Notes under the pieces: generated by a model
What the model was told of the DNA's origin: nothing
Databases searched by the model: none
What the model saw: only the letters and a program-made list of their open reading frames with translations
Position numbers and translations under genes: made by a program
NCBI RefSeq assembly: GCF_017114995.1
Contig: NZ_JABXKL010000020.1
Location: 1 to 64,000 of the forward strand
Length of the DNA stretch: 64,000 bases
Reading direction: 5' to 3'
From: Nostoc sp. NMS9
GTDB lineage: Bacteria; Cyanobacteriota; Cyanobacteriia; Cyanobacteriales; Nostocaceae
In this document: positions 16,172-23,763 of the stretch, in pieces
Layout: every line of letters starts with the position of its first letter
Numbering within the stretch: the stretch's first letter is position 1

Positions 16172-16503
16172 CCGTATCCCTACTCTTAAAACTTGGTACA
16201 TGTAGCGTCTCACCCGTCCGTAACCAGAGTTACGGGCAAAAATTCGGCGTGAAACTTCCCTACGGGACGCTACGCGAACGACAAGCTCAGTGCCAAGATG
16301 CGACTTCTCTACAAGAGGCTGCGCCAACGACAAGGCTCAGTACAAGTCAGTCGAATGCTGCCCACCGTATAAAACTAGATAATTTATTTCTTGGAAATCC
16401 CTAATCACTGAGGTTTCTCGACTTAGAGCTGATTCGTAAACAAAAGCTTAAGCCGCCATTCGCTTTACCATTAGACGAATCAATGAGCCATAAATCATTG
16501 TTT
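16172..16503. other. intergenic repeat-rich region
   Basis: Contains inverted and direct copies of cyanobacterial dispersed repeats (CCGTAACCAGAGTTACGG palindrome, TCTCTACAAGAGGCTGCGCC, ACGACAAGCTCAGT twice). No gene seen. Confidence 0.55.
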
Positions 16504-16674
16504 TGTGTGAATTTCGCGCTAGGCACCCGCTCAAAAACTGAGCTAAGAGAACTGACACTGCGCCCAAAGGCAGAATACCAAGCATTGCAAACCGTGCGAC
16601 AATAACAGCTTTCCGCTGATTGGAAAAAGCTCTATGACGCAAGAGCGGGAGTTGAGGGAACGAGCATTTTTTGA
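16504..16674 (+). pseudogene. C-terminal remnant of an IS1182-type transposase
   Basis: Read in the plus frame from 16537, the sequence gives TELRELTLRPKAEYQALQTVRQ, then a TAA at 16603, then QLSADWKKLYDARAGVEGTS. This matches my memory of the C-terminal consensus of IS1182-family DDE transposases (LTLRP...YQALQ..R..Q....WK..YA.RAGIEGT.SQ). The upstream CVNFALGTRSK looks like a decayed Cys motif with CTRSK. No ends or target duplications were found. The 64-residue minus-strand ORF at 16448 is its shadow. Confidence 0.65.
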
Positions 16675-16795
16675 CTTCGCCAATAGCATAGATTGCTCAT
16701 TTACCCTCTCTTCCAAGACTAATTCGAGTCAAGAGTGATAAATAGAGGTATTTCATTTGCTTCCGTTAGGAGCTTGACTTTTAAGACAGTCGCTT

Positions 16796-19438
16796 TTATC
16801 GTGGCACTTGCTTCCAATGTGCGATTACACCAGAAATCACCAAAGCATAATCTTGTGTGGGTTGCACAATCTTTTTTCCAACAATTTTGATTTTCCATCT
16901 TCCTGTTATGGGCGCATCAACAATGCAACCTTCGACATTATTAACACTATCTATCATGCCTCGCTCATCGAAATCATTGCCAAGATAATATCCGCCTTGA
17001 GGATTATAGACTACTAGGTTAAGATTATTGACAAGTTGACCTAGTGGTTGTTTACCTGGATAGTCGGTGTAAACTAAGGTTACTCGCAAAGGAATTGAGT
17101 TGTCGATTATCTCAAATTCGTATTGATGCTCCTTCTGACCAGACTCAAAGAAACCTTGGGTTTGATCAAAAAATTCGACGTGATAAGGTGGATTAATAAT
17201 CCGACTAAGGTTTATTCTGCCCCATCCTTGCTCATTATCTGCCCATTTTTTAGAAGATTTATGAGTATAAGAGTATTGAAAATACTCTGCTGAATGAATT
17301 AATGCTGCTTTGAGTAAAGCTGCACTCGGATTACTAATGTTCTTCTTTGTGCGAAGATATTGACGAACTAATGCCGCGCTGCCAGCAATTAAAGGAGTTG
17401 CCATAGAAGTCCCACTCATATACATATAATCTCCTTTAGCTGGTGGATAAGCAGCTTCTGAGTAATGCGTAATCTGACAGGAGCGAGTGGATAAAATGAA
17501 AGTGCCTGGCGCGATGACATCAGGCTTATAACGACCATCTTGACAAGGACCTCGACTGCTAAAGTCAGCAAATACCCCTATTGTTAAACAGTTTTTTGCC
17601 GTTCCTGGTGGCGTAATTGTTCCCTGTTGATTACCTTTATTCCCAGCAGCGAACACAATCAAAAAGTCTTTGTGTTGCCAAACAAATTCATCTAGCTGAA
17701 GACATCGGCGATTATAACACCCAAATTCACCTCCTCCCCAAGAATTAGAATGAATACGTGCGCCGTTTGTGAAAGCAAATTCAAATAATGTTTTGATGTT
17801 ACTAGGAATTCCTAGCAAATCAGAAGCGGGAGGTATCAGTTTACGTTTCAAGAATGAGTGCATTTCTTGTATCTTCCATTTGGGCGTTTGCTCAACTGCT
17901 TGAAAGATCAATTCTGCTTCAGGTGCCATTCCCTGGATAGGAGGAAGTCCGTAGTTTTGTGCCATTCTTCCGCTTCCTAATGCACTTCCTGCTACATGAG
18001 TTCCATGTCCTGAATATTTATCCGATGCTCCATCATCATCATTAGGATTATTAACTCTGTTAGAATCTGAAGGTCTGATAGGATAACTTTTAATTATCTT
18101 GACCCTTCCTTGAAAATCAGGGTGTAGTATTGCTTTTTCTCCTGTATCTAACCCTGTATCTGCAATAGCAATAATTTCTCCACTACCAGTCAATTCAGGA
18201 ATATAGTTGATGATAGAAACACCATTCGCAAGTAGGGGAACAGCAACATGATTATCAATTGTTTCGATGGTTTCTTCTTCTAACGAAATTAAACCTGGTA
18301 AACTTTTAAGAATTTCATAAGCATTAATAGGGTTACTATGACTGATTAAATCTACGACTAATTCATTAATATCAGCTTCTTCAACGACATCAATTTTCTC
18401 AGACTCTAAAGTTTTTAGAGCTTCATCACGGTCTTCTTCAGTAAAGAAACGAGCAATTAAAATACCTGGAATAAAATTGTTATTAATTTTAAGAGTTTGG
18501 GAATTTTCGACTATTTTCAGTCTTGCGTCTGCCAACATTTCTTCGGTAACTTCTACTCCTAAATCTTTTAAATATTCCTCCTGCACTCTAATAGTTGGCT
18601 CATAAGGGGTTACGCTAGCAACTTCTCTAAAATTTTTAATCTTAGTCAAAATCTCTTCACTTGGTACAGAAACAATAAGTTCTGAATCTCCTATCGGTTC
18701 TAAAATTCTTGCGCCTGTATTTCCTATTCGTTGCTTCCATTCACCGCGAACAGGAAATCTAAATTTAACGACTTGCTCTTTTTTGTAAGGCATTTTAGAT
18801 CCTCTTGAGTCTTCCGCAAGGTCTTTTGAAAGTTTTTCCACTGGATAGACATTTTTTAACTGTGTAATTATTTCTTCATTGTTAGAATCTACAGAAATAA
18901 TTACAAAAGCGCTATAAGCTTCAATTATTACTATTTCTGGCAAAAGTTGCTTAATCCGATCTTCAGAAAAGAAGACTTGATAAACTCCTGAAGTAAAGAG
19001 TTTTGCTTCAATGTTTTTTTGAACTTTTTCAACAAAGTCTTGAAATTCAGGCTCATCATATGGTAAATTATTTCTGATTGTTTGTATTAAAGATAACTCC
19101 TTTCTGCCTCCTTGAGTAAAAAACCACCATAGTGCCTGCCAAAAATCTTTAGGATCACTAGGATTTAATAACTGTGTTTTTTTCCAGATTCTTTCCAGAT
19201 AGTTCCGTAATTCACGAACTTTTTGAATTTCAGCAGCTTTGCTTGCTTTTAATTCTTGTCCTTTTTCTCCTGTACTAGCTTCATTAATTAATAACTGGAT
19301 TGATTCTATCTCTGAATTTAAAGATTGCAATTTGTCTTTTTTTAAAATAATATTCATCTCTTTGTCTCGCACAATGCTACTCAGTTCTCTATCTGCATTT
19401 TCAATACGCGATTCAACTTGCTCGATAACTGCTGACAT
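16796..19438 (-). CDS. cytosolic S8 (subtilisin-like) protease with long N-terminal regulatory region
   Basis: The protein (880 residues from ATG 19438, preceded by GGAG; the track TTG start is four codons earlier) has the full catalytic triad: Asp427 in IADTGLDTG, His481 in GHGTHVAGSA and Ser678 in SGTSMATPLIAG, with the oxyanion-hole Asn in FAAGNKG. A C-terminal beta-sandwich follows (about 755-880), as in the KP-43 type. There is no signal peptide: the N-terminus is a coiled coil (about 1-80). Residues 150-420 contain what look like three successive I9/ferredoxin-like inhibitor modules. Last gene of an operon with a receiver and a histidine kinase. Confidence 0.93.
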   Translation of the reverse strand: MSAVIEQVESRIENADRELSSIVRDKEMNIILKKDKLQSLNSEIESIQLLINEASTGEKGQELKASKAAEIQKVRELRNYLERIWKKTQLLNPSDPKDFWQALWWFFTQGGRKELSLIQTIRNNLPYDEPEFQDFVEKVQKNIEAKLFTSGVYQVFFSEDRIKQLLPEIVIIEAYSAFVIISVDSNNEEIITQLKNVYPVEKLSKDLAEDSRGSKMPYKKEQVVKFRFPVRGEWKQRIGNTGARILEPIGDSELIVSVPSEEILTKIKNFREVASVTPYEPTIRVQEEYLKDLGVEVTEEMLADARLKIVENSQTLKINNNFIPGILIARFFTEEDRDEALKTLESEKIDVVEEADINELVVDLISHSNPINAYEILKSLPGLISLEEETIETIDNHVAVPLLANGVSIINYIPELTGSGEIIAIADTGLDTGEKAILHPDFQGRVKIIKSYPIRPSDSNRVNNPNDDDGASDKYSGHGTHVAGSALGSGRMAQNYGLPPIQGMAPEAELIFQAVEQTPKWKIQEMHSFLKRKLIPPASDLLGIPSNIKTLFEFAFTNGARIHSNSWGGGEFGCYNRRCLQLDEFVWQHKDFLIVFAAGNKGNQQGTITPPGTAKNCLTIGVFADFSSRGPCQDGRYKPDVIAPGTFILSTRSCQITHYSEAAYPPAKGDYMYMSGTSMATPLIAGSAALVRQYLRTKKNISNPSAALLKAALIHSAEYFQYSYTHKSSKKWADNEQGWGRINLSRIINPPYHVEFFDQTQGFFESGQKEHQYEFEIIDNSIPLRVTLVYTDYPGKQPLGQLVNNLNLVVYNPQGGYYLGNDFDERGMIDSVNNVEGCIVDAPITGRWKIKIVGKKIVQPTQDYALVISGVIAHWKQVPR

Positions 19439-19500
19439 ATTGATCTCCAAGCAAATAGTACGAAAAAAGTTTATTTTGATGAGAAGGAAACAATCAAATA

Positions 19501-19905
19501 TTATTGCTTACTTAGAGTTTGTTGAACCTCTTCAACAAACTCAAAAGGAAGATAATCATATTTATGAATGAATCGGCTTTTATTATCTTTATTGCTTTCT
19601 TGTTCAAGCTCATCATCAGTAAAATTTGTAAAAATAATAATCGGTAAATTAGGAAAACTTTTTCTAATTTTTCTATGGAGATGAACCCCCGTTCTTAATC
19701 CATCATTAGTATCACAATCTTTAAATATGTCTTCTGGTGGCATCATCACATCTAAAATTACTAGTTGAATTTTGTCATGATTATCTTCGAGATATTTGAA
19801 AGCAGAATTAACATCTTTTTTCAAAGTGGTCTCAAATTTAGAAAGTTTTAATTCTTCAACAAAGCTAGCTATTCCTCTCTCTTCATCATCAATAAAAAGA
19901 ATCAT
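19501..19905 (-). CDS. single-domain response regulator (receiver)
   Basis: About 134 residues, one receiver domain and no output domain. The acidic pair is in LFIDDEE, the phosphoacceptor Asp is in LVILDVMMPPED (about residue 52), the Thr is in IIFTNF and the Lys in FIHKYD. An insertion after the acceptor Asp (EDIFKDCDTNDGLRTG) is longer than usual. The start is ATG 19905, with AGGAGG six bases before it, rather than the TTG of the track. It lies 22 bases after the kinase stop and 62 bases before the protease start, so it is probably the phosphorelay link between them. Confidence 0.93.
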   Translation of the reverse strand: MILFIDDEERGIASFVEELKLSKFETTLKKDVNSAFKYLEDNHDKIQLVILDVMMPPEDIFKDCDTNDGLRTGVHLHRKIRKSFPNLPIIIFTNFTDDELEQESNKDNKSRFIHKYDYLPFEFVEEVQQTLSKQ

Positions 19906-19927
19906 CAACAGCCTCCTTTACTTACAT

Positions 19928-22645
19928 TTAGTGTCTAGGAATAACTAAGTGAAATTCCGTTGGCTCAGTATTATTAGACAAAATTAAATCTCCTCCTAAT
20001 TCTCTCATTATACTTTTAGAAATAGCGAGGCCTAACCCCGATCCTGCTACATTTTTTTTGATTGCTCCAGGACAGCGAAAACCTTCTTTAAATATGTCTT
20101 TTACAAATTCATTCTCAATACCGATTCCCCAATCTTTTAATTTAATAATTATATTTTCTTTATTTTTATCATCAATATCTATATCAATTTTAAATTGATT
20201 TTTGTCATCTTTCGCATACTTTATCGAATTCATCAATAAATTATATATAACTTGGTTTATTTTTACTTTATCTGTATTAATTTCTAATCTTAAGAATCGA
20301 GGATTGACTTTACTATAGTCAATATTTTCTATGGAGAACCCGTGGTCAATTACAATCGGACGAAGTTGATTAGTCGTTTTAATAATAACATCTCTAAAAA
20401 TAAAAAATTTTTCTTTTTTAGATTTTCCAGAAATACGACCACCCATAATATATTCTAACTCTGCAACTTGGTATAAAAGTATTTCACAATCTGTCAGAAT
20501 ATCTTCTAGTTTTCTGTCAAAATGCTCTGAATTTATTTCTTCTTTACGTCTTTGAACAAAACTTGCATTACTTCTAATTCCAACAATAGGAGATCTAAAT
20601 TCATGAGTAATTTTATTAATTATTTGCGATTTTCTACGTTCAAGTGCATTAACAACAGAGTCAACAAAACTTTCTAATACTTGCACATCTCGCTCATAAA
20701 TATACTCTCTATAATCCCTTTTATAGCCTGCTTCGAGAGTTCCAATCACTTGACTTTTGAAAGGTTCAATCATAGGAATAAAAACTCTAATTAAGTCTTG
20801 ATGACCATATTTATGATATATTTGCTTATCAAAGCGTGGATCTTCAATATCTGGTACTTGAATTTTTCTGCTTTTCACAATACTAGCTTGAATATCATTA
20901 CTATCTAATGAATGGTTAGCTTCTTTTTTAAACTCTTCTAATTGATTATCTAAAATGCCAGTAATAAATTCTGTTTTTATACTATTGGTCTCGCGGTTAA
21001 CCAAGGAAATATTAACAACTTCAAATTGTAATATGTCAGTAATGCTCTTGATGACATTTTCCATAATTTGATTGTGATTTTGATGTTCGGCAATCTGCTG
21101 TTCTTTTTGACGTAGATCGCTTAACTTTTTGTCAGATTCTCGTCTATCAATCAATATCGCAGCATAACGCGCTAATAATTCGAGATACTCTTCATCAGCT
21201 TTTGAAAAAGCATTAAGTTCTGGACTTTCAATATTTAAAACCCCTAGTCTTTTTGAACCTAATTCAACCTCAGTTCCTTTTCTAACTGGGATATTTTCTA
21301 TGAATAGAGGAATGGCAATTTCCGAACGAGTATCCCGCCAATATTCTACATAAGTATCCTTCCATATAGAATCTTTTAAAACATTACCAACATTGATAGT
21401 TTTTTTGCTCTCAAGGGCTTTACCAGTAATACCTTCACCTATTTTCCATTTAGTGAGATCTTTTTTAAGAGGCCTTTTGCTTTCAATAACTTCTAACTCG
21501 CCAGTAAAGTAATTTAAGCGACTAATAGCTCCATGTCCTGAATCAAGTAAATTTATAGCACCGTCTATAAGACATTTAAAAACTTCTTTAGCTGTATCAC
21601 AATTTATCATTTCTAGCATAATTTCAGTTAGCTTTTTCAACTTCTCTCTATCTTTTAAGTTTTCCTTGGTTTTTTTATTTGTTACGGCTTTATCAAAAGA
21701 TAAAGCTGCATAGTTTGAGAAGCATTTAAACCCTTCTTTTTCTAGTTCTTTAAAAGAGCGATTTTCTGTAGTAAAAATATCCAAAATTCCAATTATTTCT
21801 CCATCATTAATCATTAATGGCGCACTCAGCATAGAAGTCCAGCCTCTTTTTTTAACTTCTCCATAATGCAGAAATTTTGTAGAAGCTCTAGTAATGTCGG
21901 ATAAATAAAAAATACCTTTTCGGCGATAAAAATCTTGCACCACATTAAAATTTTTATCCAGTTCCAGATTTTTATATTCATCATCTACTTTGCCAGCAGT
22001 AGCTAAGATTTTAAACTTTTGATGCTTTATATCTTTTTTCCAGAGAATACAAGCTGATGCCTCAAAAAGCTCACAGGCTTTTTGAGGCAATAACTGAATA
22101 AATTCATCAGGATCAACCGTCATTAACTGTTCTGATAACTTACATAAAGTTTCCAACGGTTTATAAGGATTATAATTATAATCGAGATTTTCAATAGTGA
22201 CTATTGCTCTATTAGCAAATGATTTCAACAATCCTTGTTCTTGTTTAGTCAAAGTTCCAAGTATATAAGAGAAGTGATAAATATAACCAACCACCTTACT
22301 TTCTGTTGACCACAAGGGATAACTATATACTGATTTTAAATGATACTTATCTCTAATGTTAGGATGAAGCTTTTCTTGTTTAGAAAAGACTATTTCATCC
22401 CAGAAAAGTTTTTTATTATTAATCAATCCTTCTAATTCTAGATTGTTGCTTGTACAAATCAATTGAGTAACTACTCTTGTTTCAGCATTAATAAGAGCTA
22501 TAGCAAAAGTATGACAATCGATAAATTGTTTGCCAAGTTCAGTAATTCGCTTCAACGCCTCATTTTGTGTTTTGTGCTGAAACGGAATTTCACTCATATA
22601 CTTGAAGATTTCATTTAAGTTAAATTTAGATATTTTGTCCGACAT
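19928..22645 (-). CDS. multi-GAF histidine kinase
   Basis: A 905-residue soluble sensor kinase without membrane helices. I see four GAF-like regions (about 20-155, 165-315, 335-500 and 520-665), then a HisKA dimerisation domain with ITHEFRSPIVG (His681) and a HATPase_c domain (NQVIYNLLMNSIKYA, DWGIGI, GSGLGLAIS). No chromophore-binding Cys motif was recognised, so the ligand is unknown. First gene of the kinase-receiver-subtilase operon. Base composition here is visibly AT-richer than in neighbouring genes, suggesting transfer. Confidence 0.93.
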   Translation of the reverse strand: MSDKISKFNLNEIFKYMSEIPFQHKTQNEALKRITELGKQFIDCHTFAIALINAETRVVTQLICTSNNLELEGLINNKKLFWDEIVFSKQEKLHPNIRDKYHLKSVYSYPLWSTESKVVGYIYHFSYILGTLTKQEQGLLKSFANRAIVTIENLDYNYNPYKPLETLCKLSEQLMTVDPDEFIQLLPQKACELFEASACILWKKDIKHQKFKILATAGKVDDEYKNLELDKNFNVVQDFYRRKGIFYLSDITRASTKFLHYGEVKKRGWTSMLSAPLMINDGEIIGILDIFTTENRSFKELEKEGFKCFSNYAALSFDKAVTNKKTKENLKDREKLKKLTEIMLEMINCDTAKEVFKCLIDGAINLLDSGHGAISRLNYFTGELEVIESKRPLKKDLTKWKIGEGITGKALESKKTINVGNVLKDSIWKDTYVEYWRDTRSEIAIPLFIENIPVRKGTEVELGSKRLGVLNIESPELNAFSKADEEYLELLARYAAILIDRRESDKKLSDLRQKEQQIAEHQNHNQIMENVIKSITDILQFEVVNISLVNRETNSIKTEFITGILDNQLEEFKKEANHSLDSNDIQASIVKSRKIQVPDIEDPRFDKQIYHKYGHQDLIRVFIPMIEPFKSQVIGTLEAGYKRDYREYIYERDVQVLESFVDSVVNALERRKSQIINKITHEFRSPIVGIRSNASFVQRRKEEINSEHFDRKLEDILTDCEILLYQVAELEYIMGGRISGKSKKEKFFIFRDVIIKTTNQLRPIVIDHGFSIENIDYSKVNPRFLRLEINTDKVKINQVIYNLLMNSIKYAKDDKNQFKIDIDIDDKNKENIIIKLKDWGIGIENEFVKDIFKEGFRCPGAIKKNVAGSGLGLAISKSIMRELGGDLILSNNTEPTEFHLVIPRH

Positions 22646-22761
22646 GATTCACCCGTCAATGATTACATAAGGAATATAAAAGAGAGCGATTTTTTTCGGG
22701 GGAGATAGGCAAGAATTAAGCAGGGGCTTTAAACATCTGACTTTTCACGGGATGTGGAAAG

Positions 22762-23172
22762 TCAGAATGGCCCATATCGAGAAGACTGGAAAATATAGGG
22801 ACTAAGAGGATAATCGCTTTGAAGCTTGCGGAGAGAACAAATTTCTTCAGAGTAAAGAGGATGAATAGATAGAGTGCTTTTTTTAACTCGCTTCACGTAA
22901 ATTGTGCGATCATCCCAATCTATTTGCTTCCATTGCAAAGATGCCGCCTCTGCCACGCACAATCCGTGACGGTAGCAAAGCAAAATTAGAGTTGAGTCTC
23001 GGTGAGCGTGGCGACCCTTGGATTTTTTGATATCTGACCACATCGCAGAGACTTCTTCTAGTAATAAATGTTCCCTAGTCCTGAGTTTGAAGTACTTAGG
23101 AGAGTTAGGCGACTGACGTTCTTGTTTTTCGGTTTTACCAACTTTCGGTGGTTGGACGGTTTGTGGTGTCAT
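22762..23172 (-). pseudogene. tyrosine recombinase/integrase remnant
   Basis: The 136-residue ORF resembles the N-terminal half of a small tyrosine recombinase catalytic domain of the kind common in Nostoc (LRTREHLLLEEV, TLILLCYRHGLCVAEAASLQWKQID, HPLYSEEICSLRKLQ). The first catalytic Arg, expected in RHGLRVSE, is Cys (codon TGC, one transition from CGC). The ORF stops before the HxxR and Tyr regions, so it cannot be an active recombinase. It lies directly upstream of the histidine-kinase operon on the same strand. Confidence 0.75.
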
Positions 23173-23763
23173 AACTCAACCCCCTGAAAAACTTGGGGTA
23201 TGTGAGCTAATTTTACCAACTTACGCTCCAAAGTTGGGTTTGCACATAGACATAAAAACCTAACTTTTCCCGTTAAGTCCGAAAACCCCTGCACAGAGAG
23301 AAGCAGGAGGCAAGAGGTAGAAGGAAAAGAAAATAAGAAGTTAAGAGTCTCGCGGTACAAAGATTTTATAACTCCTGCGTCCTGCCTCCTGCCCTCTGAC
23401 TTGAAAGTGCTGAGTACTGAGTAAAAATCCCAGTCCCTAGTCCCACTTTCATGCTTGGCTGTGAAACTTGTTTCATCGGGACTGCCTCCTGTCTCAAAAC
23501 CTCCACCAAAAGATAACGGGAAAAATCAGGTTTTGCGCTCAACACTATTTTTTATGAATTTAATGCGGTACATCCTGCAATACGATAAAGATATACCCAT
23601 TACAAGTATCTCTCTTGCCAGCACTGAAAAATTACATTGATTTTAGGCTGATAAAAGATGATCGCAACTTTAGGAGTCAAGCACAACACTCGATCGTGTT
23701 ACAAATCACAACTGGCAATAGTGAAATTAATTAAACTTACTGCTAATTCCTCTAAAAAAACTT
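23173..23763. other. intergenic region, no gene seen
   Basis: About 590 bases with purine-rich low-complexity stretches (23300-23335 and around 23385). The two 60-residue ORFs here lack ribosome sites and family resemblance. Confidence 0.5.

Follow-up and report, generated by a model that had tools for sequence, protein, structure and literature searches.

A mobile and modular two-component system, in which a phosphorelay activates interchangeable effectors through a common N-terminal domain, probably for conflict or programmed proteolysis, is the reading we favor (probability about 0.55) for three genes found in the filamentous cyanobacterium Nostoc sp. NMS9. These genes lie in a stretch of 64,000 nucleotides (contig NZ_JABXKL010000020.1, positions 1 to 64,000), hereafter called the window, and encode a histidine kinase (HK), a lone receiver and a subtilase of the S8 family that begins with a helical domain, hereafter abbreviated as N-domain (table 1). 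The three-gene cassette is horizontally acquired and mobile; its constant parts are the kinase, the receiver and the N-domain, while its variable part is the enzyme.

Composition of the cassette

The original prediction described three closely packed genes on one strand, with a kinase devoid of membrane helices, a receiver devoid of output domain and a cytosolic protease having an intact triad. The coordinates proved correct on re-checking, with gaps of 22 bases between HK and receiver and of 62 bases between receiver and S8. The scan for consensus promoters gave results at or near chance (24 promoter-like sites vs. 22.6 expected) and that for terminators was likewise uninformative, so that the putative co-transcription of the three genes is deduced from their spacing and conservation.

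The kinase is indeed soluble, since its top hydropathy over 19 residues is 1.32, a value indicating no membrane helix. Both the H-box (HEFRSP) and the G2 box (GSGLGL) of the kinase are intact, thereby providing the phospho-acceptor histidine and the ATP-binding boxes of two-component kinases; the Pfam match to HATPase_c reaches 60.6 bits, while that to HisKA remains under the cut-off, yet with an alignment that spans H681. The receiver has no output domain and possesses the DD/D/T/K residues of two-component receivers, of which D6, D7, D52 and K115 are invariant in 12 loci. In another genome (G172, L047 8569-8949), the intact receiver is separated from the kinase by a second receiver copy, which is shortened by a premature stop.

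Table 1. Features of the cassette and its surroundings in the window
Feature	Position	Strand	Remarks
S8 subtilase, 880 aa	16796..19438	-	ATG at 19438; no signal peptide or TM helix
N-domain of S8, residues ~1-146	19000..19438	-	All-helical; no Pfam match; common to CHAT-type and nSTAND1-type loci
Three tandem beta-alpha-beta-beta-alpha-beta units, residues ~152-202, 221-278 and 326-388	18194..18990	-	Read as triple propeptide/I9-like prosegment (model, moderate confidence)
KP-43/SubHal-like catalytic domain and C-terminal beta domain	16796..18193	-	Triad D427, H478, S678, plus N600 (M=1)
Site of 37-codon in-frame absence	17560..17580	-	Window copy alone
Lone receiver, 134 aa	19501..19905	-	ATG at 19905; acidic pair D6/D7, phospho-acceptor D52, K115; family motif GLRTG
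Soluble histidine kinase, 905 aa	19928..22645	-	Four GAF, HisKA and HATPase; H681 codon near 20605
Truncated tyrosine recombinase, 136 aa	22762..23172	-	Next to kinase
Insertion	16420..23530	.	Approximate extent

The S8 protein matches Pfam PF00082 with 164 bits and the structure 1wmd with 239.6 bits, which together with its triad places it in the KP-43-like family; indeed, KP-43 and SubHal are the nearest solved structures to its catalytic and C-terminal parts (E 5.6e-70, residues 415-867). The match with these proteases stops short of the N-domain and prosegment, and the window protein differs from them also in having no signal peptide. Foldseek recovers KP-43, SubHal and ProN-Tk-SP with the model of the window protein, but this model is of low confidence. 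In AlphaFold models of both the window protein and its Tolypothrix homologue (L012), the helical N-domain is followed by three ferredoxin-like units ahead of the catalytic domain, a region of moderate confidence in which the last strand of the third unit is not seen in the L012 model. On the basis of these three tandem propeptide-like domains we read the S8 protein as a zymogen, which is probably inhibited intramolecularly.

Most of what had been claimed for the protease is sustained by its D, H, N and S motifs together with the lack of signal peptide or membrane helix, but a segment of 37 residues is missing from its catalytic domain between NCLTIG and FSSRGP, with KNCLTIGV directly joined to FADFSSRGP. 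This absence may weaken or abolish the activity of the window protease, or else be an assembly error. In the AlphaFold models the catalytic domain has low confidence in the window protein and the full-length L012 homologue alike, the alignment being too shallow. It is conceivable, if not the more probable case, that the cassette is decaying in Nostoc sp. NMS9, its protease being inactivated by the missing segment so that only kinase and receiver might still work. Such a decay, which would be compatible with our preferred explanation for the family, is consistent with the retention of the segment in all nine homologues and with the truncation of the adjacent recombinase, whereas the three open frames and the intact triad of S8 argue against it.

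Mobility and distribution of the cassette

The genes flanking the cassette are ~100-340 bp apart in five congeners, which makes the cassette an insertion measuring about 7.1-7.4 kb; it is absent at the equivalent site in all five congeners examined, three of which provided the empty-site sequences. The GC content of the kinase (30.5%) and receiver (28.6%) genes contrasts with the 43-44% of the genes in the left flank, and kinase genes are AT-rich with respect to their surroundings at other loci as well. A relative of the truncated recombinase in a congener has 210 aa and retains the C-terminal catalytic part with RHG..Y. (Relatives of this recombinase are located elsewhere in congeners, next to an ORF that resembles a transposase by eye). 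Searches of plasmids produced partial matches alone, none reaching 80% protein coverage, and those of viral contigs found no relative of the N-domain.

Scanning species genomes for the S8 protein led to five loci. The order of HK, receiver and then S8 is found in Tolypothrix (L012), in two Crocosphaera MAGs (L013 and L014, which are the same locus) and in a Chloracidobacterium MAG (L015), while whole-genome searches added further loci in G609, G569 and G611, two in G412 and one, cut by the contig end, in G652. Overall, the order is present in ten loci with short gaps or overlaps between genes, in cyanobacteria and one acidobacterium, that is, in two phyla. The neighborhood that had been described from a single sequence is therefore conserved in other genera and another phylum, and its arrangement is not due to chance.

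It had also been anticipated that the proposed coupling would fail if homologues of the protease occurred mostly without the kinase and receiver. This is not the case, since HK and receiver adjoin every N-domain-bearing S8 having readable flanks, namely those of the window, L012, L013, L015, L044, L045, L048, L050 and L051 (L046 was left out of this comparison because its contig is cut inside the S8 gene). Given this constant association, a phosphorelay with non-transcriptional output is the best reading of the system. The only S8 gene without HK and receiver neighbors, that of an Aminicenantes genome (L016), encodes a protein that begins at the prosegment and has no N-domain; no receiver precedes it within the 458 bp that its short contig covers upstream, nor did we find in its genome a kinase of the HK family of the cassette at E <= 1e-40.

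The same association emerges from genome counts. The profile of the N-domain matches 12 of the 391 genomes of the order and that of the receiver family 11, all 11 being shared between the two profiles with the genes adjacent (hypergeometric p 1.7e-20, ignoring relatedness). The twelfth N-domain match (G008) is fragmentary and lies where a contig ends, in a genome where a kinase of the HK family of the cassette was searched for and not found. In samples of Acidobacteriota, receiver searches retrieved just the L015 locus and two more distant sets of kinase and receiver genes in the Aminicenantes genome. These other kinase-receiver pairs (L061 8015-12717 and L062 188-4097) are followed by a small protein that, as judged by eye, seems to have membrane helices close to its N-terminus.

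Exchange of effectors behind the N-domain

No part other than the N-domain is found in all three kinds of third gene, S8, nSTAND1 (E 1.2e-10) and CHAT-type, in the manner of conflict systems in which one adaptor domain is combined with different effectors. In G172 it is fused to nSTAND1 (E 1.8e-97). The third gene of G357 contains an N-domain with 35% identity to that of the window over 140 aa (E 1e-19), and its C-terminal extension has no Pfam match and looks Ig-like by eye; next to it lie the genes of a CHAT caspase-like protease (Pfam E 3.5e-15, motifs ACH and INACEAG) and then of a Pepco protein (E 2.6e-16). One of the S8 proteins of G412 carries HEAT repeats at its end. A phylogenetic tree of the kinase shows the CHAT locus of G357 nested among S8 loci, together with the window and G652 (support 99/97), a topology indicating that S8 and CHAT effectors have been exchanged behind closely related kinases. 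The original prediction of a phosphorelay having a protease as output is supported in part, as a non-transcriptional phosphorelay is the best reading but the protease is not the defining part of a system where CHAT and nSTAND1 are found behind the same HK, receiver and N-domain.

Comparison of the equivalent loci of G611 and Crocosphaera reveals identities of 85% for HK, 77% for the receiver, 86% for the prosegment and 76% for the catalytic part, vs. 25% for the N-domain, the second half of which is still alignable. The N-domain is thus at once what the loci share and what varies most among them. Its extensive replacement, with HK, receiver and prosegment kept, is not obviously predicted by a pure role in docking the receiver.

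Proposed mechanism and relationships with known systems

We infer a contact between receiver and N-domain, an activation of the effector and a biological role along the following lines. The soluble, GAF-rich kinase would sense a cytosolic signal and phosphorylate the lone receiver, which in its phosphorylated form would act on the N-domain heading the third protein. The N-domain would serve as the adaptor, and whichever enzyme it carries or recruits would then be released: here the S8 protease, putatively held inactive by its three propeptide-like domains, elsewhere the CHAT protease or the nSTAND1 NTPase. The output would be a destructive or switching enzyme that is turned on rather than transcription, and the evidence suggests that the cassette is a plug-in module controlling destructive enzymes instead of an ordinary pair regulating genes.

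The Detocs system is composed of the kinase DtcA, the lone receiver DtcB and the receiver-effector DtcC. It resembles the cassette in that kinase and lone receiver control a non-transcriptional effector, as we propose here, but the effector of the cassette bears the different N-domain and no fused receiver; a Pfam search for Response_reg in the S8, nSTAND1 and CHAT-type third genes gave no match. Another single-domain receiver, CpdR of Caulobacter, controls the ATP-dependent housekeeping protease ClpXP. The lone receiver would similarly be tied to intracellular proteolysis in the cassette, where the putative partner is instead an operon-encoded, zymogen-like S8 protease. An S8 peptidase is also present in the anti-phage system IetAS (IteS), where it is connected with defense. 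However, the window protein scores 36.9 bits against the IteS cut-off of 900 and Pfam finds no adjacent AAA ATPase in the cassette or its immediate neighbors. (An AAA_23/SMC-like ATPase gene is located one gene past the G609 cassette, L044 2021-4090, and a second S8 subtilase gene, positionally separate from the cassette, starts at the right end of the window, contig 63834-65159). PADLOC matches do not support a role in defense, since those of the receiver to SduA and PDC-M60 are equalled or surpassed by an unrelated ordinary receiver (1.4e-9); its matches of S8 to IetS and 'subtilase' cover the S8 domain alone.

The cassette shares with NTP-dependent conflict systems, which are frequent in multicellular prokaryotes, the use of a small adaptor domain on interchangeable effectors that include peptidases (PMC7159879; PMC8195603). 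Conflict systems with effector-associated domains have been reported to contain receivers but no histidine kinase among their effectors (PMC7159879), and receivers are described as acting without kinases (PMC8195603), whereas a cognate kinase and receiver form the constant core of the Nostoc cassette. Searches of open-access literature found no description of the cassette. Tentatively, with chances that we consider somewhat short of even, it may represent an undescribed mobile class of conflict systems in which a His-Asp phosphorelay, and not an NTPase switch or second messenger, triggers death-type effectors (S8 zymogen, CHAT and nSTAND1) via one shared helical adaptor.

The effector type, patchiness and mobility point to conflict, abortive infection or cell death as the most likely setting, even if no neighboring established defense system has been shown. 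GAF sensors often bind small ligands, and the kinase is soluble while the protease looks self-inhibited in the models; these properties would also suit a system for stress adaptation, in which the cue read by the kinase would be of metabolic or redox nature and the protease would trim particular host proteins, leaving the cell alive and invaders untouched. We regard this alternative as unlikely, because a sparse spread (about 3% of genomes), an insertion with a recombinase remnant and the swap with CHAT and nSTAND1 better fit an accessory conflict module than a housekeeping function. That the three genes are simply neighbors, with kinase and receiver signaling elsewhere and the third gene as co-transcribed cargo, is quite improbable: the receiver-effector contact is one that we infer and the N-domain is exchangeable while the receiver stays similar, but adjacency is held over two phyla and one N-domain is found on three effector types.

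If our preferred reading of a modular phosphorelay is true, two-component signaling would reach beyond transcription and directly govern proteases and caspase-like enzymes, with a concrete chain of receiver, adaptor and protease, and the kinase, receiver and N-domain would offer a handle for finding further effectors.
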